Shown here in pieces: positions 10,429-23,463 of a stretch of 52,610 nucleotides of DNA (positions within the stretch are counted from its first letter, which is position 1; every line of letters begins with the position of its first letter). The position numbers were made by a program, and so were the translations under genes. The notes beneath the pieces are model-generated. The model searched no databases, was not told the DNA's origin, and saw nothing but the letters and a program-made list of their open reading frames with translations. The DNA is from Rhodopirellula sp. (GTDB lineage Bacteria > Planctomycetota > Planctomycetia > Pirellulales > Pirellulaceae), in contig JAHELS010000019.1 in assembly GCA_024644085.1 (NCBI GenBank), positions 1 through 52,610 of the forward strand, given 5' to 3'.

Positions 10429-10440
10429 AGCGGGCCCGCT
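10429..10440. terminator. AGCGGGCCCGCT palindrome at the end of the TolC gene
   Basis: A perfect 12-base GC palindrome overlaps the stop of the TolC-family gene (stop at 10439-10441). It has no loop as a single hairpin and no T-run follows, so a terminator role is weak. Confidence 0.2.
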
Positions 10441-12400
10441 AACGATTCAGATCCGCCGGCGTCGGGAGACTCGCCACCGGGAGACTCGCCACCGGAACAG
10501 GGCCCGCATGTGAATCCATCTGCGGTACAGGTTGTGGGGGCGCATCGACGACCATCATGTTGGCTGTCTGCAGCAGGGTGCCTTTTTCGAATTGGACATT
10601 TTTTGTCGCGACGGTGTATTCGGCCAGCGACACGTAGTATTTCGTTTGTGACTCACTGACGCGGCGTTGGGCATCGAGCAACTGTTCCAGGCTGACCGGA
10701 AGTCCAGCCTTGCGGTTGGCCTCGAGAACGTCGAGCGCGTCGCTGGCAGCAATGTATCGATTGATGTTCGTTTGCATTTGGGCATAGGCGCGGTCACAAT
10801 CGGCCACCACAGCTGTTAGATCATGCAGAATCTGTCGTTCCTGTTCTCGTAACAGAGCGCGATCGCGGGCGAGTTGCAACCGTGCGTGATGGACCGCGGC
10901 GTGCGCCTGGCGAAACCCTACGGGAAGTTTCAGTTCGAGACTTGCCTCGTACTCCTGGAAATTGAAGGTACCGAGTTCGTCAAACGCGCTGTCGTCGCCT
11001 GCCAATTGTTTGTCGAGTCCGCGCAGCCGATAGATCGTGACCAGATCGAGTGAGGGCATCAGATGATTTTTTGCAGCCAGCAATTCCATTTCTCGGCGCC
11101 GCACCACCAATCGTTGCTGCTGCAATTCGCTGCGCATCTGAATCGCCTCCATTGAGATTGAATCCCAATCGAACACGATCGGAGCGTCATTGGGTTCGTC
11201 GGCGGGCCGAATCAGCATGCCGTCGCCGATGGGCAGCCCGATCAGCAATCGGAATCGTCGCTCGGCGGCCTGGACACCGTTGAGTCCAGCAAAGGTGCCG
11301 CCGGAGCTGGAATTCTTGACCCGTGTGCGCTGCACCAACTTTCCGGCGATGGCATCCTGGAGGTCCGACTGGAAGCGGTAAAATTGTTCGCGAGCCAGTG
11401 CCTCGGAGGCACCCGATTTTCGATCGCTTGTCTTTTGCGCCTCGAAACTTTGCCAGGTGCTGCGACTCCGCTGCATCGCATCGCGTTTCGCATCGACGTC
11501 GCGATATGCGAAATAGAGGTCCCAGTAGGCATTCATCACGTCGCTCAGGTAATCCCGCACTTGCTGGCGGAATTTTGATGACGTGATATCGTTGTTGACC
11601 TTCGCGATCAACACTCCGTTGTAGATACCCGGCTGTGAGTTGGGACCGGCGATACGATTGAACGTCAGCCCGCCGCCCTGCAACAGCGGCTGACGCATTT
11701 CGGCATGTAACTGAGTTTGCCAAGCACTGAGTGTTTCGTTGCCGGTTGCATTGTTGGCGTCGTAATCGGTCACGCTGCGAATCGCGAATCGGGCGCCTGT
11801 GGCGGTGCGCTTCGATATCTGCAACACGTAATCGTGTGTGTCTTGCTTGAACGCGTTCGCGCCGCCCCCAAAAAATCGGTTGTTGAATTTGCGGTCGTTG
11901 TTCTGCCACTTTCCGAAAGCATAAAACTGTGCATCGAATGCTGATAAGGCTGCCTCGATGCTTGCTTGCGGGTCGGTTTCTACGAGGCCGATCGACTGGC
12001 CCGTTCCGACGGCCTCGGGCAGCCGCAGCACCGTGGCGCCGAGATCTCGCAATACATCTCCATTGCTGAGGGCAATCTCGATCGATTCATGGAGCGTCAG
12101 GTCGCGATAGACCGCGTTGTCGAGATCTTCGGGATTCCTCAACGTGAGCGGGGGCGTTGGCATCTCCGGAAATTCACACGCCGGAGCACCTGCGTCTACA
12201 TCGAGCATCAGTGCATCGATGCTGCCCACACGATTGCCAATCGTCTCGGGAACATTTCGATAAGTCCGGCATCCAAACACAAAACAAACGACCAACGCGA
12301 ACAGCACCACGCGCGCAGCGGTCGCGATGTTACCGAGGCGAGGTTTTCGATCGTGATCGAGGACCGTTATCAAAGTTGAACCTGGGCGGGTCGACGTCAA
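10439..12400 (-). CDS. TolC-family outer-membrane efflux lipoprotein
   Basis: The 653-residue product has a late lipobox (VFGC, Cys44) after a hydrophobic helix, so it is a predicted outer-membrane lipoprotein. LTLHESIEIALSNGDVLRDL is the typical first TolC helix, MRQPLLQGGGLTFNRIAGPN is the strand/turn signature of planctomycete members, and long helices continue through both halves (EARLQLAR-type repeats, LEANRKAGLPVSLEQLLDAQ near the end). TolC trimers form the exit duct of tripartite export systems. It is divergent from the GAF-HlyD, HlyD and M50-HlyD genes, with a 214-base shared control region, so it is the likely outer-membrane partner of that set. The C-terminus contains a VASLP duplication encoded by two 15-bp repeats (10464-10493). 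Confidence 0.88.
   Translation of the reverse strand: MTSTRPGSTLITVLDHDRKPRLGNIATAARVVLFALVVCFVFGCRTYRNVPETIGNRVGSIDALMLDVDAGAPACEFPEMPTPPLTLRNPEDLDNAVYRDLTLHESIEIALSNGDVLRDLGATVLRLPEAVGTGQSIGLVETDPQASIEAALSAFDAQFYAFGKWQNNDRKFNNRFFGGGANAFKQDTHDYVLQISKRTATGARFAIRSVTDYDANNATGNETLSAWQTQLHAEMRQPLLQGGGLTFNRIAGPNSQPGIYNGVLIAKVNNDITSSKFRQQVRDYLSDVMNAYWDLYFAYRDVDAKRDAMQRSRSTWQSFEAQKTSDRKSGASEALAREQFYRFQSDLQDAIAGKLVQRTRVKNSSSGGTFAGLNGVQAAERRFRLLIGLPIGDGMLIRPADEPNDAPIVFDWDSISMEAIQMRSELQQQRLVVRRREMELLAAKNHLMPSLDLVTIYRLRGLDKQLAGDDSAFDELGTFNFQEYEASLELKLPVGFRQAHAAVHHARLQLARDRALLREQERQILHDLTAVVADCDRAYAQMQTNINRYIAASDALDVLEANRKAGLPVSLEQLLDAQRRVSESQTKYYVSLAEYTVATKNVQFEKGTLLQTANMMVVDAPPQPVPQMDSHAGPVPVASLPVASLPTPADLNR
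10464..10493. repeat. Two 15-bp direct repeats in the TolC C-terminus
   Basis: GGGAGACTCGCCACC occurs twice in tandem (10464-10478, 10479-10493), giving a duplicated VASLP peptide in the disordered tail of the TolC-family protein. Confidence 0.8.
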
Positions 12401-12524
12401 AGCGCAGACTGACCGTTAAATTCGGCACATAGCGCACCGTTTGACTTATTCGTACAGATTGCCGGATGTGATCCAATCAATTCGGTCGAAATCGGGCCCT
12501 GACGCGTCGAACTCCGTGAAACGC

Positions 12525-12539
12525 CGGTTCCACGAACCG
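12525..12539. promoter_or_regulatory. CGGTTC-CAC-GAACCG inverted repeat between divergent export genes
   Basis: A perfect 6-base inverted repeat lies in the 214-base region between the TolC start (12400) and the GAF-HlyD start (12614). It is well placed to be an operator controlling both directions, or a leader hairpin of the plus-strand transcript. I see no convincing sigma70 promoter in the gap. Confidence 0.3.
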
Positions 12540-12613
12540 AAACGTTTGGCGGTTGGTTAAACTGGGCACTTTGACCCGGCTCCTTTTTTGAATCCATCCA
12601 CGTGCGCCCTCCC

Positions 12614-14524
12614 ATGAGCGACTCCCATCATCGGACTGAGCCCCTCTGGAAGGATGCCGCGGCGCTTGTCGAGCGAGTCGAAATGGCAGCTCGATCGGAC
12701 ATGCCGCCAGGGACTTTCTTTGATGAGCTCTGTGCCGAAATCTGCGCGACGGCTCGAGCCTGGACAGTTTCGCTGTGGACGATCGAGGACTCGCAGCGGT
12801 CAATCCTCGCCCGCAATGGATTGGCGGTGCATGACGAAAAGACCCCGACCCCCTGGGAGCAATGCCCGGCCTCGGATGAGCATGCCCCGAGTAGTCGCTG
12901 GTTCAGCGTGGCGGGAGAAACTTCGCTGACCCTGGTTGCAGTGCAGAAATTGCACGACGACATCTTGATTGGTCTCGAACTGCGATTCGACGACGCAGTC
13001 GATTTGGCTCTGCAGAAGACTTTGAGCGAATTGGCCGAAGCGGTGCTTGATTTGGCCGCGGGCGTCTTCATGAGATCGAAGATTGCGATGCTGCGTCGCC
13101 GCCTCGATGTTCAAACGCAACGCGATGAATTCACCCGCAAGCTCTACGAGGGTATCGATCTGGAAGAATCCTTCGCGTCAACCGCGAGGGCTGTGGCCGA
13201 GGAATTGTCGATCGACCGCGTCAGCATGTTTCGCCGGCGCGCGTCCGGGTGGCGCATGATCGCATCGTCCACACCGGGAAGGATCGACCGACGCGCACGG
13301 CAAGTCAGGTGGCTCGAGATCCTGACAGGCGAGCTGCTCGAAAGCGCGGATCGAATCACCTGTGTGTTGTCGGACACCGAGCAGGTAGACGGCGTTAGTG
13401 ATTCACTGGTTGCTTATCGGCGGGAATCGGGTTGTAAAGAATTTCACGTGGAATTAATCCACAACGACGATGATACGCGTGACGATGCAGCGATCGTGCT
13501 TGAACGCTTCCGCGATAATGACCCTCACGATCCAGGATTTGGATCAGCCCTTGAACCGATACGCCATCCAGTTTCCCAGGCGATCCAACATGCGCTTCGA
13601 CGTGATGACGCAGCATGGGGTCTGATCGCAGGGCGGCTGTCACGTGCTACGTCGCGCCGAAAGCTGGTTTTCGTGGCGGGTGCGATCACGATTCTGGTTT
13701 TGGCTGCCTGCTTGATCCCAGTCAATTTTGATCTTCCTGTCGAAGGCCGCATTGTTGCTGCGCAGCGGAACCGTATCTTCGCGCCGGCACAGGGAGTGAT
13801 TGCCGACATTGCGGTAAACAATGGCGAGCGAGTACGCGCGGGCGATACGCTGGTCGTCCTGCGGAGCGCTGATTTGGATTTGCAACGTCGCCAGATCGAA
13901 GGTGCTCTCGCAACGGCACAATCACGGTTCGATTCACTGCTGGTGACCCGCTCGGGGAACCGGGGTGGCGGTGGGCGAGACCGCGAGAGCGGAGTCTCTG
14001 CCGATGAGCAGGTAGTAAAAACTGAGATCGAGGGTCTGGAGAAACAATTGCAATTGCTGCAAGCGCAGAATGCTGAATTGACGGTCGCCAGTCCGATGGA
14101 TGGTCGGGTCGATCGTTGGAACCTGCATCAATCGCTGAGTAGCAGGCCCGTCGCGCACGGACAATTCCTTCTTGACGTCGTGGATGACCGAGGTGGATGG
14201 ATCGTCGACCTCGATTTGCCGGAGAAGAATTTGAACTATGTTTTGACCGCTCAGGCGAACCAGACGGGCCGTTGTCACATGCGCCTGAGATCGAATCCCA
14301 CGGAAGTGTTCGAGGGTGACATTGCTGAGATCGCGGACGTCGCGCATCTCAATTCCGCCGGTCAATCGGTGATCCGCCTCAGCGTGCCGTTTGTATCCGA
14401 AACGCCCGTACATATTCGCTCTGGCGCTACCGTGGCCGCGCGACTTCATTGCGGCAAACGTCCCATCGGATTCGTCTGGTTTCGCGGGCTGATCGAATGG
14501 AGCCGCCGCCAAGGCTGGTTTTAG
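12614..14524 (+). CDS. HlyD-type adaptor with cytoplasmic GAF-like domains
   Basis: This encodes 636 residues from ATG at 12614 (MSDSHHRTEPLWK); an ATG four codons upstream is possible. Residues ~15-340 look cytoplasmic and contain one or two GAF-like regions, the clearer one starting near LEESFASTARAVAEELSIDR. A single membrane helix follows (about 350-370, VAGAITILVLAACLIPV). The C-terminal third is a membrane-fusion adaptor: a split lipoyl/barrel-sandwich half starting EGRIVAAQRNRIFAPAQGVI, a short helical hairpin, then TVASPMDGRV and a beta-barrel. An adaptor with cytosolic sensory domains could couple ligand binding to export. It is first in the plus-strand gene set, 26 bases before a second HlyD gene, and divergent from TolC. 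The GAF call is by pattern only. Confidence 0.8.
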   Translation: MSDSHHRTEPLWKDAAALVERVEMAARSDMPPGTFFDELCAEICATARAWTVSLWTIEDSQRSILARNGLAVHDEKTPTPWEQCPASDEHAPSSRWFSVAGETSLTLVAVQKLHDDILIGLELRFDDAVDLALQKTLSELAEAVLDLAAGVFMRSKIAMLRRRLDVQTQRDEFTRKLYEGIDLEESFASTARAVAEELSIDRVSMFRRRASGWRMIASSTPGRIDRRARQVRWLEILTGELLESADRITCVLSDTEQVDGVSDSLVAYRRESGCKEFHVELIHNDDDTRDDAAIVLERFRDNDPHDPGFGSALEPIRHPVSQAIQHALRRDDAAWGLIAGRLSRATSRRKLVFVAGAITILVLAACLIPVNFDLPVEGRIVAAQRNRIFAPAQGVIADIAVNNGERVRAGDTLVVLRSADLDLQRRQIEGALATAQSRFDSLLVTRSGNRGGGGRDRESGVSADEQVVKTEIEGLEKQLQLLQAQNAELTVASPMDGRVDRWNLHQSLSSRPVAHGQFLLDVVDDRGGWIVDLDLPEKNLNYVLTAQANQTGRCHMRLRSNPTEVFEGDIAEIADVAHLNSAGQSVIRLSVPFVSETPVHIRSGATVAARLHCGKRPIGFVWFRGLIEWSRRQGWF

Positions 14525-14550
14525 GAAACATCAACCGAACCCACCCAACC

Positions 14551-15708
14551 ATGACCAAATCCTTAACAACCGTTTTCCGATCCACCCTACTCCTGGTTCT
14601 TTTCTCGCTCGGGGTGGTCGATTCGGGAGTCGCCGATCAAACCCTCGAGGTTGGAGATCAACCCCTCGAGGTTGGAGATCAACCCCTCGAGGTTGGAGAT
14701 CAACCGCTGCAGGTTGACGAGATGATCGTCGTATTGATTGACGCGGTGAATGTGCCGGCGGGCCAGAGTGGTGTGATCGCGAAGGTACCTGTTCGCGAAG
14801 GAATGTCGGTAACCGTTGGCCAGCAATTGGCCGTCCTGGATGATCGCCAGGCGAGGATAGAAGAGGAGTTTGCGGTTACTCAACTTGCGATTGCAAATGA
14901 GACCGCGGCCAATTCATTGTCCATTGATTTGGCGAAAAAGAAACTTGCTCAGCAACAACAACTCGCCAAGCAGATCGAGATTGCTCGTGAGATCGCGGAT
15001 CGAAAAGCGGGCAATGAAACTCGAATCCTGGCTTCCCGGAAAGCGGAAGCGGTCGCCCGAAACGAGCTTGATCGCGCCACACGGGCGCGCCAACAATTCA
15101 TCGATAGTGTTTCCCAGTCTGAAATCGACAGCCTTCGTCTGTCCTACGAGAAGAAACAGTTGGAATCGGAACAGGCGGAATTCGATCGCCGTATCGATGA
15201 GCTCAACGCTCGATCGGAAGTCGCATCGGTCGCGGCCCAGGCGATCAGCATCGAAAGGTCAGAAATCGAAGTTGCCCAGGCGGGAGCCGACCGAAGCATT
15301 GACCAATTGAATCTCGAGTTGCAGCAGCATCAGGTTCAACTCGCAAAACTTGCCAGGGCCCAGCAAGAGATCGTCTCACCGATCAACGGCGTCGTCGTCC
15401 AGCAGTTTCGTCGACAAGGTGATTGGGTTACCGCCGGCGATCCGGTGGTCCGCGTGATTCGGCTCAGCCGCTTGCGGGCCGAAGGGTTTGTCCCGCTGGG
15501 GAAGATTCACCAACTGAGATCGCAGCGCAAGGTTGACCTGTTGATCGACGTCGGTGAGGCATCGCCCGTTCAACGTGCAGGCCGGATTGTGTTCATCCAT
15601 CCGGAGGTGGACCCCGTGAACAAGGAAGTTCGGTTTTGGGTTGAATTCGAGAATCCGAAATTCGATGTCTTGCCCGGCATGCGATTGAGTCTGAGATCGA
15701 AGCCATGA
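14551..15708 (+). CDS. HlyD-family periplasmic adaptor with 7-residue repeats
   Basis: This encodes 385 residues from ATG at 14551, where a clean signal peptide begins (MTKSLTTVFRSTLLLVLFSL). Soon after it come three and a half copies of a PLEVGDQ heptapeptide, encoded by a 21-bp tandem repeat. The rest is a membrane-fusion protein: a lipoyl half (GQSGVIAKVPVREGMSVTVG), a long coiled-coil hairpin (about residues 105-265), the second lipoyl half (IVSPINGVVVQQFRRQGDWV) and a beta-barrel. These proteins bridge an inner-membrane component to TolC. Its stop overlaps the start of the M50-HlyD gene by 4 bases (ATGA), so translation is probably coupled and the two proteins act together. Confidence 0.85.
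   Translation: MTKSLTTVFRSTLLLVLFSLGVVDSGVADQTLEVGDQPLEVGDQPLEVGDQPLQVDEMIVVLIDAVNVPAGQSGVIAKVPVREGMSVTVGQQLAVLDDRQARIEEEFAVTQLAIANETAANSLSIDLAKKKLAQQQQLAKQIEIAREIADRKAGNETRILASRKAEAVARNELDRATRARQQFIDSVSQSEIDSLRLSYEKKQLESEQAEFDRRIDELNARSEVASVAAQAISIERSEIEVAQAGADRSIDQLNLELQQHQVQLAKLARAQQEIVSPINGVVVQQFRRQGDWVTAGDPVVRVIRLSRLRAEGFVPLGKIHQLRSQRKVDLLIDVGEASPVQRAGRIVFIHPEVDPVNKEVRFWVEFENPKFDVLPGMRLSLRSKP
14641..14721 (+). repeat. 21-bp tandem repeat encoding PLEVGDQ
   Basis: Three near-identical 21-base units (14641-14661, 14662-14682, 14683-14703; the first differs in one base) and a degenerate fourth lie just after the HlyD signal peptide. The units are in frame, so copy number changes would lengthen the linker without a frameshift. 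Confidence 0.9.
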
Positions 15709-17879
15709 TCCCGGAGACGTCGACGATCGCTCTGAGGGCAGATTTGATTCAGCGCCAGGTTTGGATGGGAACCGATCCAATGTGGGTCGTGAAAGATCCA
15801 TTGTCGCGCGCGATGTTTTACTTCAACGAGCAAGAACATTCGATTCTGAGTCTGGCCGACGGAAAGACGACTTTCAAACAGATCGCCGCGCGTGTGTTGC
15901 AACGCATGACGCCTGAGCTCGTTTCTCAAGAGTCGTTGGCGAGGTTTTTCACCGAGGCACAGCACCAGGGTCTGGTTTCGATTGGCGGCTCCGATATGAC
16001 ACAGCGGTTGCCAAATTCGGACCTGCGTCACCGATGGTGGCGAAATCCGTTGGCGTTGCGCGTTCCTGGAATCAATCCTGATCGTCTGCTGGATCGATGC
16101 CTGCCCATTGCGAAGTTTCTTTTCTCCAGGAACGCGGCACTGGTGATCATCGCACTGATCATCACGGCCATCGTGATTGTCGTGCAGCAGTTCGAGACGC
16201 TCGCGGGGCACTTGTCGGTCGCGACGGCGCGCTTTGCAAGCGGACAGGGACTCGTGGCGCTGTTGGCGGTGGTTTCCGCAACAAAGATCATTCATGAATT
16301 CGCGCACGCTTTGGCCTGCAAGCGTTTTGGCGGCGAGTGCCGCGAACTCGGTGTGATGTTCTTGGTTGGTGTGCCCTGCCTCTACTGTGATGTTTCCGAC
16401 GCGTGGCTGCTCGATCGGCGTTGGAAGCGGATGTTTGTTTCCGCAGCCGGCATGCTCGCCGAATTGTCATTGGCCGCGGTGGCGACACTGATCTGGGTCT
16501 TCACCGCCGACGGCGCGATCAGGGACCTTTGCGTGACCGTGATGGTTGTCTGTTCAATCACGACGTTCGTCTTCAATGGGAACCCGCTGTTGCGGTATGA
16601 CGGCTACTACATCCTTTCGGACCTGGTTGGAATTCCGAATCTTGCCAGCCGATCGGGCCGGGTGATTCGCGTATGGATGCGACGAGTGTTGTGGGGTGAG
16701 ACGTCGTCCATTGCATCGATCGACAACCGAAAGCCCTTTCTGGTCGGTTACGGAATCGCCAGCGGTGTTTACCGAACGGCAATCTATTGTTTCATTCTGT
16801 ACATGCTCTATCGATTTGCGGACAACCACGGGTTTGGCATTCCAGCGGGCACGGCTGCGTTGACAGCGGGTCTTTGGTTCAGTGTTCGCCTGGTACGCCC
16901 CGTTTTGCAGCCGCCGCGAGCTCACGCAGAGTCTCTCGCTGCGCAGCGCTCGCAGGTTTCAAGTTGGCGGGCGGCGTTCATACTCGGCGGCGCAACAGCA
17001 TCACTCTTGTTCATTGGGATGATTCCGTTACCGCACCGAGTGGTAGCACCGATGTCGGTGCAACCACTCGATGCCGCGGAAGTGTTCGTGACCGATGCCG
17101 GCGCGATCGTCGCGTCGGTTGCTGAGGGGAGACTCGTTCACGCTGGTGACGTCATCGCTGAATTACGCGATCCAGAAATGGAGCGGGAACTGGAATCGAT
17201 CCGCGCCCGCTGCGCCCGGCTGTCGGTGGAGCTTGACGGACTTCGCTCACGTCGGGGCACCAGCCGCGCCGACGCAACGAGAATCCCGGTGGTCGAAAGT
17301 GCGTTGAAGGAGGCCATCAAGCAGCGGCAACTGCAACAGGACGTTGCCCAGCGATTGAAATTGACATCTCCGAAAGACGGTCGCGTCTTTGCTGCGCCGA
17401 CCACGGCGTCACCCCAAACGATGAATCGAGACGACGACCGACATCCGCGGTTTTGGACCGGCACTCCAATGCAGCCAATCAACCGCGGGGCCTGGCTCGA
17501 TGAGGGTACGGTGGTCTGTGTGGTGGGAGATCCCTCCCAACGCGAAGCGGTCGTACTGGTCCCGCAGGATCAGATCGAATGGATTCGGACAAGACAGCGA
17601 GCGACGCTTCTATTGGCGGACCGAAAACGCGGTTCGGTCACCGGCGAGGTAATCGAGATCTCGGCGACGCCGATTCGAGAGTTTTCAGAGCCAGGGGATC
17701 GAGTTGCCGGGGTCGATGACCCAATCGCTTTGGCGGCGCCGCGTTACCAGGTCCGGATTCTTCTCGACGAGACTCCCCATGGCCTGCCGGCTCGCATGAC
17801 CGGGCTGGCAAGGATTTCGGTTGATCATTCGTCGTTTTTGGCGAGGATCGGCCGGTTCCTCAGGCAATCGTTCGGGTAA
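15705..17879 (+). CDS. M50 (site-2-protease-like) membrane protein fused to an HlyD-like domain
   Basis: The 724-residue protein has three parts. Residues ~15-110 resemble PqqD-like small domains (FNEQEHSILSLADGKTTFKQ). A multi-pass membrane core follows with the M50 zinc motif HEFAH (197-201) and the distal NPLLRYDGYY motif whose Asp299 is the expected third ligand. After about residue 440 the protein resembles a membrane-fusion adaptor (EVFVTDAGAIVASVAEGRLV, then LKLTSPKDGRVFAAP and a barrel). All protease ligands are kept, so it may cleave a membrane or leader peptide, or act as a non-proteolytic channel or scaffold. It overlaps the upstream HlyD gene by 4 bases and is 30 bases before a glycosyltransferase gene. 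I infer that it takes the place of the inner-membrane pump in a TolC-linked complex. Confidence 0.85.
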   Translation: MIPETSTIALRADLIQRQVWMGTDPMWVVKDPLSRAMFYFNEQEHSILSLADGKTTFKQIAARVLQRMTPELVSQESLARFFTEAQHQGLVSIGGSDMTQRLPNSDLRHRWWRNPLALRVPGINPDRLLDRCLPIAKFLFSRNAALVIIALIITAIVIVVQQFETLAGHLSVATARFASGQGLVALLAVVSATKIIHEFAHALACKRFGGECRELGVMFLVGVPCLYCDVSDAWLLDRRWKRMFVSAAGMLAELSLAAVATLIWVFTADGAIRDLCVTVMVVCSITTFVFNGNPLLRYDGYYILSDLVGIPNLASRSGRVIRVWMRRVLWGETSSIASIDNRKPFLVGYGIASGVYRTAIYCFILYMLYRFADNHGFGIPAGTAALTAGLWFSVRLVRPVLQPPRAHAESLAAQRSQVSSWRAAFILGGATASLLFIGMIPLPHRVVAPMSVQPLDAAEVFVTDAGAIVASVAEGRLVHAGDVIAELRDPEMERELESIRARCARLSVELDGLRSRRGTSRADATRIPVVESALKEAIKQRQLQQDVAQRLKLTSPKDGRVFAAPTTASPQTMNRDDDRHPRFWTGTPMQPINRGAWLDEGTVVCVVGDPSQREAVVLVPQDQIEWIRTRQRATLLLADRKRGSVTGEVIEISATPIREFSEPGDRVAGVDDPIALAAPRYQVRILLDETPHGLPARMTGLARISVDHSSFLARIGRFLRQSFG

Positions 17880-17909: not shown

Positions 17910-19511
17910 GTGAATATTGTTATCCTTCATTGCCACTTCGAGCGCGGTGGCGTTACGCAGGTGGTCGAAAACCACGTGCGAGCGCTGCGTGAGAGCGATT
18001 CAATTGGCCGAATCGTGCTGGTCGGAGGCAATCGCTTTGGCGGCCTTTCCGACAAGACACGAGAGTCGGTCGAGCAGGTTTCGATACCCTCGTTCGACTA
18101 CGACGACCTGGCTCACGAGAATCCGGCTCGCGAGAATCTGGCCCACGACGACGCAGCCCAAGGCGACGATCGCGATGCGATTGGCCGGCGGGCCGAGGGC
18201 ATGGTCCGATCATTGACGCAGGAGTTCTCTCGCCTTTCGATCTCAAGTGACGATTCGATACTTCACTGGCACAATCACAGCCTGGGAAAGAACACGGCGG
18301 TACCCGATGTCATTGGGCGACTTGCCGAGGCCGGTTGGCGATTGTTGCTTCAAATCCATGATTTCGCTGAGGACAATCGTCCCGAAAACTATCGTCGATT
18401 GATCGATGCCTCGGGCGCAAAAAGAAAACCTCATCTCGACGCCTATCTCTATCCGGTCGCAGCGCAAATTCACTACGCAACGCTGACGCGCGGTGACGCC
18501 GCGACGCTGGTGGATGTGGGAGTGCCGGGGCATCAGACGCATTGCCTTCCCAATAGCGTCGTGGCCCCGTCCGGCGAGCCGCCACCTCGGCACGAGGCGT
18601 TGGAAAGAGTTCGGCGAGAGTTGAAATTACCGCCCGATGCGCAGTGGTGCCTCTACCCGGTGCGAGGGATTCGCCGCAAAAACGTGGGCGAATTCCTGCT
18701 GCTTTCCCGTTGGACACGCCCGAATCACTTCGCCGGATTGACTCTCTGTCCCGCGACACCGGTTGAGCGGAGATCATACCTGCGATGGAAAGAGATAGCT
18801 TCGGTCGTCGCGCCGCGTGCAGTATTCGACGCGGGACAACATCCGCATGTTTCCTTTCTCGACAACATGTCGGCGGCCGAATTCGTCGCTTCGAGCAGTG
18901 TTGCCGAGGGATTTGGTATGGCCTACCTCGAACCCTGGTTGGTGCACCGTGAAGTGATTGCCCGGCGTCTGCCGACCGTGACCGATGACTTCGAGGCAAG
19001 CGGTGTCGATTTGCCAAAGCTGTACGATGCGATCTTCATTCCCGGTGATCGAGTGTGGGTTTCGGAGTGCATGAATGAATCGGCTGTGGCAATGGAGCAA
19101 GCCTGGTCGAAGATTCCGGAATCGTTTCAACCGCAGTTTCGCGCTCGAGCAACCGAAAATGAGGGGCAGATCGACTTTGCCGAGTTAATTCCGGCGCGAC
19201 AGGCTGAAGTCCTGCGGCGCGTCGCATCGGATGCTGGATTCGAATCGGAAATCAAAGCTTGTGCAACCAAACTCGTGGATGACTTGACGCGAACGGCTGA
19301 CGAGGGTCTGCTTCGCCGCAATGCTGAAATTGTTCGGTGCAAGTATTCTCCCGAAAAGACCGCCGAGCACTTGAAGTCGATTTACGAATCGTTGTCACAG
19401 GCGCCGATCGACTCGGAAGTTTTCGCGCCGCAGGGTGCAATGCGGGCGGTCGACCGTATCAACCGCTCCCGACCGTTCTATCCATGCCGCACGGAGGTGC
19501 TTGATGAATGA
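17910..19511 (+). CDS. GT-B (GT4-like) glycosyltransferase
   Basis: The 533-residue protein starts at GTG 17910, directly at the GT-B N-terminal strand and Gly-rich loop (MNIVILHCHFERGGVTQVV). The C-terminal Rossmann half has the phosphate-binding Arg/Lys segment (RGIRRKNVGEFLLLSRW) and the EGFGMAYLE motif (E333 to E341), the E-x7-E signature of retaining GT4-type enzymes. A polar insertion with short repeats (LAHENPARENLAHDD) lies near residue 70. It transfers a sugar from a nucleotide donor; donor and acceptor are unknown. It lies 30 bases after the M50-HlyD gene and overlaps the start of the HAD gene, so it appears to be in the same transcript. It could act with the second GT and the phosphorylase in glycoside synthesis. 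Confidence 0.75.
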   Translation: MNIVILHCHFERGGVTQVVENHVRALRESDSIGRIVLVGGNRFGGLSDKTRESVEQVSIPSFDYDDLAHENPARENLAHDDAAQGDDRDAIGRRAEGMVRSLTQEFSRLSISSDDSILHWHNHSLGKNTAVPDVIGRLAEAGWRLLLQIHDFAEDNRPENYRRLIDASGAKRKPHLDAYLYPVAAQIHYATLTRGDAATLVDVGVPGHQTHCLPNSVVAPSGEPPPRHEALERVRRELKLPPDAQWCLYPVRGIRRKNVGEFLLLSRWTRPNHFAGLTLCPATPVERRSYLRWKEIASVVAPRAVFDAGQHPHVSFLDNMSAAEFVASSSVAEGFGMAYLEPWLVHREVIARRLPTVTDDFEASGVDLPKLYDAIFIPGDRVWVSECMNESAVAMEQAWSKIPESFQPQFRARATENEGQIDFAELIPARQAEVLRRVASDAGFESEIKACATKLVDDLTRTADEGLLRRNAEIVRCKYSPEKTAEHLKSIYESLSQAPIDSEVFAPQGAMRAVDRINRSRPFYPCRTEVLDE

Positions 19512-20391
19512 TCCGGATGAGTGGGCGGCTGCTGTCTTGCAGCACCGTCACGTCATGTCGCCTATCGCAACCGATGTCGTGCCGCAACTCAATCCGCTGG
19601 TCGATGTCCAAGCCGTGGTCTTCGACGTCTATGGGACGCTCGTGATCAGCGGAAGTGGCGACGTCGGTTCGGCCGATAAGGCGGACCGGGGATCTCACAT
19701 CGAAGATGCGCTCGGCGCGGTTGGTCTGCATGAGTTCGATGCAGCGCGCCCTTCGATCGAAATGCTTCACGCTGAGATCGGTCGGTTGAACGACGCCCGA
19801 CGCAGCGATCATTGCCCGAAACCGGAAGTCGACATTGTCGAGGCGTGGAGGTTCGTGCTGGAGCGATGCGGGATCGACACGCATGGTCGGACCGAACAGA
19901 CGGTTCGATTAGCCGCTCAATACGAGGCCCGCGCGAATCCGACGTGGCCGATGCCCGGATCGGTGGAACTGCTCAACGCGGTAAACGCTTTGGGCATTCC
20001 GATGGGAATTGTCAGCAACGCCCAGACTTTCACGCCGCCACTTGTGCAGGACTTGTTGGCGGGGCAATCAATTGTCGAGGGAGGCTTCGACCTGAATCTT
20101 TGTGTTTTTTCGAATCGATTTCGCCAGGCCAAGCCGGGACCGCGACTATTCGACGCTCTTCGTGTTGGGCTTTCAACGCGCGGAATCGCCCCCCATCACG
20201 CCGTTTATGTCGGTAATGACATGCTCAACGATGTTTGGGCCGCCTCCCAGGCCGGGCTTCAGACGGCTTGGTTCGCCGGGGACCTGCGGAGTTGCCGACC
20301 GCGCCAGGACGATCCTCGATGTCGGTCGTTGCGTCCCGACGTTGTTCTGACGAATCTGGGGCAGTTGCTAGAGTGCCTCGCTATCCAGTAA
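19504..20391 (+). CDS. HAD-superfamily protein with a DxY (dehalogenase-like) motif
   Basis: This encodes 295 residues from ATG at 19504, which overlaps the end of the glycosyltransferase gene. Motif I is FDVYGTL: the nucleophile Asp41 is present, but the second Asp of phosphatases is Tyr43, as in L-2-haloacid dehalogenases (DxYGT). Motif II (IVSNAQ), the motif III Lys (AKPGPRLF) and motif IV (VGNDMLNDV) are all recognisable, with a helical cap in between. The first 30-40 residues are an extra N-terminal segment. Because it sits in a sugar cassette, a sugar-phosphatase role would be natural, yet the DxY change argues against simple phosphatase chemistry. Dehalogenase, hydrolase or non-canonical phosphatase activity are all possible. 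Confidence 0.75.
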   Translation: MNDPDEWAAAVLQHRHVMSPIATDVVPQLNPLVDVQAVVFDVYGTLVISGSGDVGSADKADRGSHIEDALGAVGLHEFDAARPSIEMLHAEIGRLNDARRSDHCPKPEVDIVEAWRFVLERCGIDTHGRTEQTVRLAAQYEARANPTWPMPGSVELLNAVNALGIPMGIVSNAQTFTPPLVQDLLAGQSIVEGGFDLNLCVFSNRFRQAKPGPRLFDALRVGLSTRGIAPHHAVYVGNDMLNDVWAASQAGLQTAWFAGDLRSCRPRQDDPRCRSLRPDVVLTNLGQLLECLAIQ

Positions 20392-20460
20392 AAGCCTCTC
20401 ACATCAAGCGTGCCACGCGCACCCGTTATCGTCGAAGAACCAAAGGTTAAGCCAGCTCCC

Positions 20461-21726
20461 ATGGGCGTTCAGATTGGATTTGTCGGAACTCGATTCGCCG
20501 GAACCGACGGCGTGTCGCTCGAAAGTGCGAAGTGGGCGCAGGTGTTGTGGGACCATCGACACGTCAGCCATTGGTATTCAGGAATGAGCGACCGCGACGA
20601 AGAAACGTCGATGGTCGTGCCACACGCCTACTTCGGGCACCCCGATATCGAATGGATCAACCGCCGCGCTTTCGGCACAAGGACACGTACCCCGGACGTC
20701 ACCCAGCGGATCTATGCGCTTGCGGATTACTTGAAAAAGACGTTGTACGAGTTTACTCACCGGTTCAATCTCGACTTGTTGATTGTCCAGAACGCACTCT
20801 GCATTCCGATGAACATTCCGTTGGGTGTCGCGCTGACACACTTCATCGCCGAAACCGGGTTTCCGACGATCGCCCACCATCATGATTTTTACTGGGAGCG
20901 AGATCGATTCAGTGTATCGGCCGTGACCGATTTGTTATGGATGGCGTTTCCTCCCGCATTGCCGCAGATTCAGAACGTCACAATCAATTCGTTCGCTCAG
21001 GAAGATCTTGCGCACCGCCGCGGCGTCTCGTCGATTTTGGTGCCCAACGTTCTGGATTTCGAGAACGAACCGGAGGAAGCAGACGACTATGCGGATGACT
21101 TCCGCGAGGACATCGGAATCGCCGACGACGAAATTCTGTTTCTTCAACCAACTCGCGTCGTCCCCCGCAAGGGAATCGAGCACGCGATCTCGCTTGTTTC
21201 GGCACTCAGAGACAAAAGATGTAAGCTGGTCATTTCTCACGCCAGTGGTGACGAGGGTGACGAATACCTGCACGCGCTGCAGGAGCACGCTGAATCGCAT
21301 GGCGTTCAACTTGTGCTGTGCGACAAGCAGGTCGGAGACAAGCGGGGTTTGACCGAGGACGGCGAAAAGATTTACACGCTCGCCGATGCGTATTCGCAAG
21401 CGGACTTCATTACCTATCCGAGCATCTACGAGGGGTTTGGCAACGCGCTGTTGGAAGCCTTCTATTATCGCAAGCCGGTCTTGGTCAATCGCTACTCGAT
21501 CTTCGTCGCCGATATCGAACCCAAGGGTGCGAAAGTGATCGCAATGGACGGGTACCTGACGCGTGACGTCGTAAGTAAAGTCCAGCGAATCATCAACGAC
21601 AAGGAATACCGCGACGAGATGGTCGACTTTAACTACGAAATCGGTAAAGCTTTCTTCAGCTACAGCGTGCTGCGCCGGAAACTCCGCGCATTGGTCACCA
21701 ACTTCACCGGCCAGGAAAACCTGTAG
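20461..21726 (+). CDS. GT4 glycosyltransferase, resembling mannosylglucosylglycerate synthase
   Basis: This encodes 421 residues from ATG at 20461. A GTG at 20410 in the same frame would add 17 residues before the first core strand. The N-terminus ([20 protein letters not shown]) is a distinctive signature that I associate with mannosylglucosylglycerate-synthase-type enzymes; this is from memory and needs a search. GT-B features follow: the phosphate-binding segment [12 protein letters not shown] and the E-x7-E motif EGFGNALLE (E324 to E332). The product would be cytosolic. It lies 69 bases after the HAD gene and 33 bases before the GH13 phosphorylase gene. Together they could make and recycle a glycosylglycerate osmolyte, a solute type reported in Rhodopirellula. 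Any retaining GT4 activity is well supported; the substrate is less so. Confidence 0.75.
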
Positions 21727-21759
21727 GGGCCGGCCTCGGATACCACCGCAAATCTCCGA

Positions 21760-23463
21760 ATGACGAATCTCGATTCCACCACCGCCGGGCTCATTCAGGA
21801 AATCTACGGGCGCGTGCCTGAAGTGCTCGCCGATGGCATCGCGGCCCTTGAAGACCATCGCATAGATCGCGGTGAGGCGGATTCACTTTGGTCCCAGCAG
21901 GACGTGGTGCTGATCACGTACGCCGACCAGATTCGCGCTCCGGATCGCTCGCCGCTGCAAGCCCACCGTGAATTCCTGCTCGACCATCGGCTTGATCAAT
22001 TGATCCGATGCGTTCATTTGCTGCCGTTCTGTCCTTACACCAGCGACGATGGTTTTTCGGTGGTTGATTACCTGGCCGTCGATCCGGAAGCGGGCACATG
22101 GGACGACATCGCCGAACTCGGCAACTCATTCGACCTGATGTTCGATCTGGTGCTGAACCATGCCTCGCAGAAACACAAGTGGTTTCAGCGATACCTGAGC
22201 GGCGATCCCGATTACGCCGATTTCTTCATCGACCAGGATCCGTCCTCGGATCTCTCGCAAGTCGTCCGTCCGCGTAGCCTGCCCTTGTTGACGGAATTTG
22301 AATCCCCCGAGGGCGTCAAGCATGTCTGGACGACGTTCAGCGCCGATCAGGTTGACTTGAATTACGGGAACCCGCGCGTGATGTTGGCGATGCTCGAGAC
22401 GTTGGTTGAGTACGCACGCCGCGGTGCCCGAATCATTCGGCTCGATGCAATCGCGTTTTTGTGGAAAGAAGTCGGCACGAACTGCATTCATCTTCCCCAA
22501 ACACATGCCGCGGTACGTTTGATGCGACGAGTGCTCGATCGCGTTGCCCCGGGAACGCTTGTGTTGACTGAAACGAATGTGCCGCATGCCGAGAACATCA
22601 GTTATTTCGGCAACGGTGATGATGAAGCCCACATGGTTTACCAATTCAGCCTGCCGCCGCTGTTGCTCGATGCCATTCACCATGGCGAGACGTCCATTTT
22701 GAGTAAGTGGCTCGAGACACTGCGGCCTCCGACGAAGCAAACGACGTTTTTCAACTTCACGGCTTCTCACGATGGCATCGGCGTGCGGCCACTCGAGGGA
22801 ATCGTTCCCACCGAGCGGATTGAAAAGCTCGCGGAGGTCGTTCGTTCGCATGGCGGGCGGGTCAGCACGCGTCGTAAGCCTGACGGCAGCGACAGTCCGT
22901 ATGAGTTGAACATCACGTACCTCGAGGCGGTCGCGGATGCCACGGCGGTTTCTCCCGCCGAACATGCCAGGCGATTCCTGGCGACCCAGGCGATCATGCT
23001 TTCGATGCAGGGAGTTCCCGCGGTTTATTTCCATAGCCTCGTGGGTTCGCCCAACGATCAGGCCGGAGTTGAAAGCTCAGGGCAAAACCGACGCATCAAT
23101 CGGCACAAGTACGACCGGTCGGAATTGGAAGAGGCACTGTCACGACCCCACTCGTTGCAGCGGCGCGTTTTCGATGGATACCAAAGGCTGTTGGAAGTCC
23201 GCCGCGCCCAGGCGGCCTTTCATCCCAGTGCGACCCAGACGGTGATGCATCTGCAATGCGATGGTTTGCTCGGTTTCCTCCGGGCGGCTGAGTCGGGCCA
23301 GCGACTCGCCGTGATCGCAAATCTTTCGAACGATCCGAAGTGGGTTGACTCATCCCAGGTGGACGAAGAACTGCGTTACGACGAACTTGCCCTCGAGCGG
23401 TTATGGAAAGATGATCCGATTCCGATGCGGCCGTTCCAGGTACGCTGGTTGACCGACCAATGA
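21760..23463 (+). CDS. GH13_18-type glycoside phosphorylase (sucrose / glucosylglycerate phosphorylase-like)
   Basis: The 567-residue protein has the sucrose-phosphorylase fold. The three catalytic acids are in place: nucleophile Asp229 (IIRLDAIAFLWKE), acid/base Glu271 (LVLTETNVPH) and Asp338 (TASHDGIGVRP). The HLLPFCPYTSDDGFSVVDY and DLVLNHAS blocks are also typical. Enzymes of this subfamily cleave alpha-glucosides with phosphate, releasing glucose-1-phosphate. The block GTNCIHLPQTHAAV and the presence of a GT4 of possible glycosylglycerate type favour a glucosylglycerate-type substrate, but sucrose cannot be excluded. It is the last gene of the long plus-strand run and ends 3 bases from a convergent gene. 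There is no signal peptide, so it acts in the cytoplasm. Confidence 0.85.
   Translation: MTNLDSTTAGLIQEIYGRVPEVLADGIAALEDHRIDRGEADSLWSQQDVVLITYADQIRAPDRSPLQAHREFLLDHRLDQLIRCVHLLPFCPYTSDDGFSVVDYLAVDPEAGTWDDIAELGNSFDLMFDLVLNHASQKHKWFQRYLSGDPDYADFFIDQDPSSDLSQVVRPRSLPLLTEFESPEGVKHVWTTFSADQVDLNYGNPRVMLAMLETLVEYARRGARIIRLDAIAFLWKEVGTNCIHLPQTHAAVRLMRRVLDRVAPGTLVLTETNVPHAENISYFGNGDDEAHMVYQFSLPPLLLDAIHHGETSILSKWLETLRPPTKQTTFFNFTASHDGIGVRPLEGIVPTERIEKLAEVVRSHGGRVSTRRKPDGSDSPYELNITYLEAVADATAVSPAEHARRFLATQAIMLSMQGVPAVYFHSLVGSPNDQAGVESSGQNRRINRHKYDRSELEEALSRPHSLQRRVFDGYQRLLEVRRAQAAFHPSATQTVMHLQCDGLLGFLRAAESGQRLAVIANLSNDPKWVDSSQVDEELRYDELALERLWKDDPIPMRPFQVRWLTDQ

Follow-up and report, generated by a model that had tools for sequence, protein, structure and literature searches.

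A TolC, HlyD and M50-HlyD gene set of Rhodopirellula sp. as the probable envelope part of an exporter for leader-bearing giant proteins

Gene content and layout of the locus

The analysed stretch of DNA (C16:1-52610, hereafter the window, 52,610 nucleotides in length) comes from a 6.9 Mb genome of Rhodopirellula sp. that is split into 468 contigs. Four of its genes form the set considered here. A TolC/OEP-family outer-membrane factor of 653 aa (10439..12400, minus strand; Pfam OEP, 1.2e-14) is transcribed divergently from the other three genes, and the intergenic region (12401..12601) presumably carries both promoters. The plus strand then encodes a GAF-type HlyD adaptor of 640 aa (12602..14524; Pfam HlyD_3, 1.4e-9), an HlyD adaptor whose N-terminus has a hydrophobic, signal-like segment (14551..15708; HlyD_3, 1.1e-16), and an M50-HlyD fusion of 724 aa (15705..17879; HlyD_3, 4.7e-9; Peptidase_M50, 3.1e-6). 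The start of the HlyD gene is placed at the ATG at 14551, the listed open reading frame opening at 14449, and its end overlaps the M50-HlyD gene by 4 bases. The layout given in a preliminary description of this DNA, a TolC-type protein divergent from two HlyD-type adaptors and an M50-HlyD fusion, is thus borne out by the Pfam OEP and HlyD_3 matches, with Peptidase_M50 falling slightly under its cut-off (27.1 against 27.2 bits); the overlap and the catalytic residues named there (see below) also agree with the sequence.

Two of the finer assignments held in part. The GAF-type adaptor is read as a cytosolic N-terminal part, a single membrane helix placed near residue 353 by a hydropathy scan, and an HlyD tail. 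Its HlyD part is confirmed, but no GAF model matches the window protein at E <= 0.1; PF01590 (GAF) does match 18 of the 28 aligned proteins, the window's own lying outside those 18. The TolC-like protein belongs to the OEP family as described, and the one support for calling it a lipoprotein is the sequence ...CFVFGC. Right after the signal-like segment, a 21-base unit (LEVGDQP) is repeated in tandem about three times in the HlyD gene (window 14644-14712).

No pump was found at the locus, in agreement with the preliminary description: a motif scan finds no ABC-signature ORF in the window, and a Pfam scan of 20 further window proteins (the larger ORFs) finds no member of the ABC, RND or MFS families. 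Downstream of the set (window 17910-23463) lie a 533-aa ORF that has no Pfam match, a HAD hydrolase, a group 1 glycosyltransferase, and an alpha-amylase-family ORF; near-equal ORF lengths follow the set in the closest relatives (L017 and L018). At the window end, both ORFs of some 1000 aa encode FG-GAP/ASPIC proteins.

Domains and predicted fold of the M50-HlyD fusion

The fusion, the sole polytopic membrane protein within the set and the sole protein folded here, was predicted with a mean pLDDT of 85.3. By Foldseek, the model comprises three parts: an N-terminal RRE (PqqD-like) leader-binding fold (residues 6-96; 15720..15992, plus strand), which the preliminary description had overlooked; an M50/site-2-protease membrane domain (about residues 118-401; 16056..16907, plus strand), also seen by Pfam; and an HlyD/MacA-like periplasmic adaptor tail (residues 441-717; 17025..17855, plus strand). 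The RRE region resembles leader-bound RREs, and the S2P core has folds of the RseP and SpoIVFB type; these comparisons come from a second look at the Foldseek ranking, which MacA-type adaptor rows dominate. At the profile level, PF05402 reaches 0.055 against the window protein, and 10 of 46 relatives match it at 0.01.

The protease part carries the motif of an M50 site-2 protease (HExxH plus a distal Asp) and is a putative active protease. The zinc motif HEFAH (residues 197-201; 16293..16307, plus strand) corresponds to an HExxH present in 122 of 122 relatives, and Asp299 (16599..16601, plus strand), a residue of the third zinc-ligand type, is kept in 46 of 46 aligned sequences and in 122 of 122 relatives, 80 of the loci having been retrieved by a pattern that already contains that Asp. 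Among named relatives, the daptide intramembrane protease NF041824 comes nearest to the M50 part (6e-53; 180.3 bits against a cut-off of 300), in a match that starts at residue 26 and thus covers part of the RRE region; the epipeptide protease model NF058609 also responds (5.7e-10; score 39 against a cut-off of 225).

Conservation of the set in relatives

Relatives were collected as the best 80 of at least 586 loci from a scan of genome contigs; 79 of the 80 carry planctomycete names and one is titled 'bacterium'. An upstream flank of 3.7 kb or more is available for 63 of these, and both the GAF-HlyD and the HlyD gene precede M50-HlyD in 54 of the 63 (singly, in 55 and 61, respectively). The models used to recognise neighbouring genes were built from the same loci on which they were run. 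TolC occurs in the flanks of 11 of the best 80 loci, divergent and upstream as in the window. The window's genome holds five further M50-HlyD genes, adjoined by HlyD-type genes. Since the three-gene order is kept at most relatives with enough flank, and paralogous sets exist in the genome, the arrangement reflects more than chance. Scattering of the genes in relatives, which the preliminary description had named as an argument against a joint assembly, was not seen.

Truncated SecA paralogues

One of the paralogous sets of the window's genome, at C50, encodes a SecA of 664 residues between TolC and HlyD. In the six truncated SecA proteins that we scanned, the SecA_DEAD, preprotein cross-linking and P-loop domains are kept, and SecA_SW is found in none. 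Such a paralogue, which had escaped the preliminary description, lies within 7.5 kb of 25 of the 122 M50-HlyD genes, in several separate places on the M50 tree. M50-HlyD (at least 250 bits) is present in 30 of 118 planctomycete genomes. Among the matches listed, which extend down to about 116 bits, a non-canonical SecA match of more than 200 bits is found in 20 of these 30 genomes versus 1 of the 88 others; second SecA matches outside that list occur in G015, G040 and G110 (without M50-HlyD) and in G022, G077, G084 and G107 (with it). At 13 loci in 10 genomes, such a non-canonical SecA match lies 350 bases or less downstream of the M50-HlyD match (match-to-match coordinates).

There is no SecA at the window locus, and no SecA linked to M50-HlyD was seen in the window's tree clade. 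The three SecA matches of the genome lie at C331, C96 and C50, off the window's contig, and those at C50 and C96 are truncated and devoid of SecA_SW. The second truncated SecA of this genome (L016 7642-9816) has an ABC exporter nearby, which comes with an HlyD of its own; among the matches listed, no M50-HlyD falls on that contig. Elsewhere the arrangement varies: in G022 (L112 11157) the order is GAF-HlyD, M50-HlyD, a 650-aa protein that matches SecA weakly (76 bits), HlyD and TolC, the 650-aa protein perhaps being a decayed or replaced motor. In G036, G052 and G065, a leader-bearing frame is divergent from a truncated SecA that lies a long way from every M50-HlyD in the list; two of the three leader matches are weak (E 0.04-0.05).

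A short leader on giant proteins of Planctomycetes

Several giant ORFs near the loci, likewise overlooked earlier and now considered as the probable cargo, have in common a short motif at the N-terminus, LExRx(L/V)L or a near variant, often preceded by basic residues. In 328 ORFs of at least 600 aa the motif has 17 matches versus 2.7 in shuffles, and 15 of the best 80 (of at least 586) loci are flanked by a leader-bearing ORF of at least 350 aa versus about 3.2 expected (P 1.4e-6); the expectation assumes 20 leader ORFs per 6.9 Mb, and the flank expression was derived from the same ORFs on which it was counted. In the window's tree clade (12 members, support 0.927), six flanks hold an LExRxLL ORF, the window being outside those six; no LExRxLL protein was found within the window. 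When scanned for hydropathy, 19 of 21 leader regions do not rise to 2.0, a value reached by 11 of 13 TolC N-termini; most leaders are thus unlike a Sec signal peptide.

The curated model LEPR-XLL (NF012209) matches one of the 10 giant N-termini beside planctomycete loci, under its cut-off. Across genomes it exceeds the cut-off in 16 of 118, namely in 15 of the 30 with M50-HlyD versus 1 of the 88 without (P 5.9e-10), in counts that are confounded by phylogeny, the 30 genomes falling in 18 families. The other 15 M50-HlyD genomes give no match over the cut-off of this model, which spans just 24 positions, and in G087 the leader is present and M50-HlyD was not detected. Giants of the tandem-95 type served as a control and are unbiased (14 of 30 M50-HlyD genomes versus 45 of 88 others, P 0.83), so giant proteins as such do not explain the association of the leader; within the 59 tandem-95 genomes, LEPR-XLL is present in 9 of 14 with M50-HlyD versus 0 of 45 without. 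The association of the leader with the M50-HlyD system is well supported. The window's genome (G000) has four frames over the NF012209 cut-off, of 1752 to 3383 aa, none of them on the window's contig.

A custom leader profile, A2, built from 16 leaders of other loci, has 19 matches in the window's genome. At E <= 0.1 it is found in 50 of 118 genomes (27 of 30 with M50-HlyD versus 23 of 88 without), and many of the matches in genomes devoid of M50-HlyD are single and in short frames. When frames of at least 800 aa are considered, the counts become 20 of 30 versus 4 of 88; this limit, like the leader expression and the leader subtypes, was fixed after the sequences were inspected.

Leader subtypes at proteobacterial plasmid loci

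A protein search of plasmids returned 81 records, of which 18 loci were opened. A large neighbouring gene with a reachable start is present at 15 of them, the other three being those of Azospirillum TSA2s, Indioceanicola and Citrobacter, and the leader was found in 13 of these 15 neighbours. Examples are ALEPRFLLSADP from Pseudosulfitobacter and ALEARYMFDAA from Variovorax; in Pontibrevibacter the first L is replaced by M. It is absent from the neighbours in Magnetospirillum (492 aa) and Phyllobacterium (about 1400 aa). The leader-bearing gene of Tistrella sits downstream at a distance of about 4.5 kb; that of Rhodobacteraceae M382 is placed across the origin of the record and does not directly adjoin. 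The six giants of the SecA type comprise three annotated as LEPR-XLL, two with other names, and one in an unannotated record.

The leaders of the 6 loci with SecA read xLL(S/N/A)AD, and those of the 7 loci without a visible SecA read x(L/M)(F/Y)D(A/G)A. Leader subtype and SecA presence agree with 0 exceptions among the 13 (P 5.8e-4, for classes defined after reading the leaders), as would be expected when each system reads its own leader. The SecA-less plasmid sets include no annotated ATPase.

Some further features of these loci may be mentioned. The SecA-type proteobacterial sets (L123, L128, L132, L149) often have an added small DUF3467 gene or SapC-family gene, and two proteobacterial SecA paralogues are annotated as prepilin peptidase. 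In Caballeronia NK8 (L140 3717-14230) the leader-bearing giant gene is split into two ORFs. A SecA-less TolC-HlyD-HlyD-M50 set (L124 10466-16761) adjoins a leader-bearing Ig-like giant. Among 5426 complete E. coli genomes, 24 have a match to this set (22 of them over 80% of its length), and 21 of the 25 places are plasmid-borne. The IncHI RSP proteins, at most candidates for the E. coli plasmid giant, were considered as an experimental precedent for it and dropped: RSP export depends on a conjugative type IV system (PMC6764697, PMC8730810).

Proposed function and alternatives

What the analysis establishes is the gene set, the domain folds, the retained active-site motif and the association of leader, M50-HlyD and truncated SecA; the comparison of relatives suggests that the set recognises the leader and exports giant surface proteins. 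We consider it probable that the locus is the envelope part of such a leader-guided exporter. The RRE domain of M50-HlyD would dock the LExRxLL leader of the giant protein on the cytosolic side, and the site-2-protease core, located at the membrane passage or forming it, would probably trim or release the leader. The HlyD tail of the fusion, the GAF-type HlyD and the free HlyD may assemble as a mixed adaptor ring on the TolC-like channel, through which the giant protein would leave. In many relatives the truncated SecA that accompanies the set is likely to act as its motor. As the window yielded no LExRxLL protein and its locus no SecA, both must act in trans here, the motor perhaps being supplied by either of two loci elsewhere in the genome. 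This need for partners in trans speaks against the reading, as do the 15 M50-HlyD genomes with no LEPR-XLL match over the cut-off, the leader-bearing G087, the two plasmid neighbours devoid of the leader, the SecA-less plasmid sets with no annotated ATPase, and the phylogenetic confounding of the genome counts. Export, leader binding, cleavage, stoichiometry, the energy source and the role of the GAF part are what we infer from these comparisons.

The preliminary description had proposed that the M50 protein may replace the pump and that the GAF domains sense a cytosolic signal. The absence of a linked classical pump, the unscattered genes, and the position of M50-HlyD as the only polytopic protein speak for the first part; as new ideas neither stands, since both are in print in substance. 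In the available portion of their paper, Kamneva, Poudel and Ward (2015; PMC4452313) describe, in several phyla, secondary SecA_DEAD proteins whose gene neighbours encode M50, HlyD and GAF-HlyD proteins, remark on the missing ABC transporter at these SecA_DEAD/M50 loci, and propose SecA_DEAD as the ATPase, M50 as the membrane pore, and GAF as a regulatory, sensory part. One may hold, with these authors, that an M50-HlyD pore and a truncated SecA ATPase serve some other substrate, the LExRxLL giants being mere frequent neighbours in adhesion islands. That neighbourhood was indeed found without a cargo being named in the portion at hand, but the leader tracks the system across genomes in a way that giant tandem-95 proteins do not, and the leader subtype tracks the system subtype; we therefore regard a different substrate as unlikely. 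An unlinked ABC exporter could also be the true pump, with the M50 domain merely processing its substrates. A type I ABC protein does lie about 5 kb from M50-HlyD in Phyllobacterium, and an ABC-type exporter with HlyD is found at C96 of the window's genome; against this, the motif test places ABC-signature ORFs in the flanks of just 3 of the best 80 (of at least 586) loci and 2 of 20 additional ones, which leaves such a pump improbable.

Two further readings, peptide maturation and regulated proteolysis, are given little credence. Maturation and export of small ribosomal peptides, as by the daptide or epipeptide proteases, would suit the NF041824 and NF058609 matches and the RRE fold of the model; the daptide score of 180 nevertheless stays under the cut-off of 300, and the recurrent neighbours that we noticed are giant genes. 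This role seems slightly less probable than the unlinked ABC pump. Least probable of all would be a sensing device that exports nothing, in which regulated intramembrane proteolysis by the M50 domain is triggered via the adaptor tail and tuned by GAF: the S2P folds of the RseP and SpoIVFB type and the GAF domains of relatives are in keeping with it, but TolC together with three HlyD modules per set forms a conduit.

Within the favoured reading, a leader-guided exporter of giant proteins, a more specific and decidedly tentative version is that of a distinct export route. Here the RRE would read the leader, the S2P domain would serve as leader peptidase and at once as inner-membrane gate, and a ring of three HlyD types would lead to TolC, for proteins of up to about 16,000 residues; truncated SecA would power one subtype, and the other, that of the window and the E. 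coli plasmids, would have no dedicated ATPase in the locus. Planctomycetes and some proteobacteria encode very large proteins whose N-terminus bears a short LEPR-XLL tag that has had no explanation. If the proposal is right, a single system would account for this tag and for the uncharacterised M50-HlyD/SecA loci known since 2015, as well as for the exit of proteins of thousands of residues without a classical pump, and site-2 proteases would gain a role as secretion gatekeepers.

Relation to known systems

The loci of Kamneva et al. share with the window the M50-HlyD and HlyD kinds of protein, probably also the GAF-HlyD kind (GAF being recognised in 18 of 28 aligned proteins, the window's own not among them), and the lack of an ABC transporter, and sometimes include an OEP protein. 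The window's locus differs in having a divergent TolC; M50-HlyD and HlyD occur together in it, and the truncated SecA_DEAD gene is absent. No RRE domain, leader or cargo is named in the part of that paper available to us (PMC4452313). With type I secretion and tripartite efflux (HlyBD-TolC, MacAB-TolC, EmrAB-TolC), the set has in common the HlyD-fold adaptors and a TolC-family channel, and in the Foldseek comparison of the model MacA appears closest to the adaptor tail of M50-HlyD. In contrast to these systems, neither an ABC exporter encoded with the adaptor nor a linked MFS or RND protein was found in the window; the set has three different adaptor chains, one of them fused to a protease, and the proposed signal is N-terminal. 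The daptide (NF041824) and YydH/LiaK epipeptide (NF058609) intramembrane metalloproteases are M50 relatives by sequence, whereas the window's M50 domain is fused to an adaptor, stands beside HlyD and TolC, and scores under both cut-offs.

LEPR-XLL (NF012209), a curated leader model of 24 residues, is a domain name only, and in the literature, as far as the source was available, it appears in the annotation of a Vibrio giant. In the literature searched, which included few subscription papers and preprints, we found nothing that ties LEPR-XLL or DUF4347 to HlyD or M50 systems, no mention of DUF4347 together with HlyD, no paper on the likely cargo of M50-HlyD systems, and no experiment on such a system. 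In the window's own genome, DUF4347 (6.8e-57) comes straight after the LExRxLL leader in a protein of 3209 aa (L118 700-10329), and the same order of leader and DUF4347 is found, by annotation, in giants of Azospirillum and Niveispirillum.
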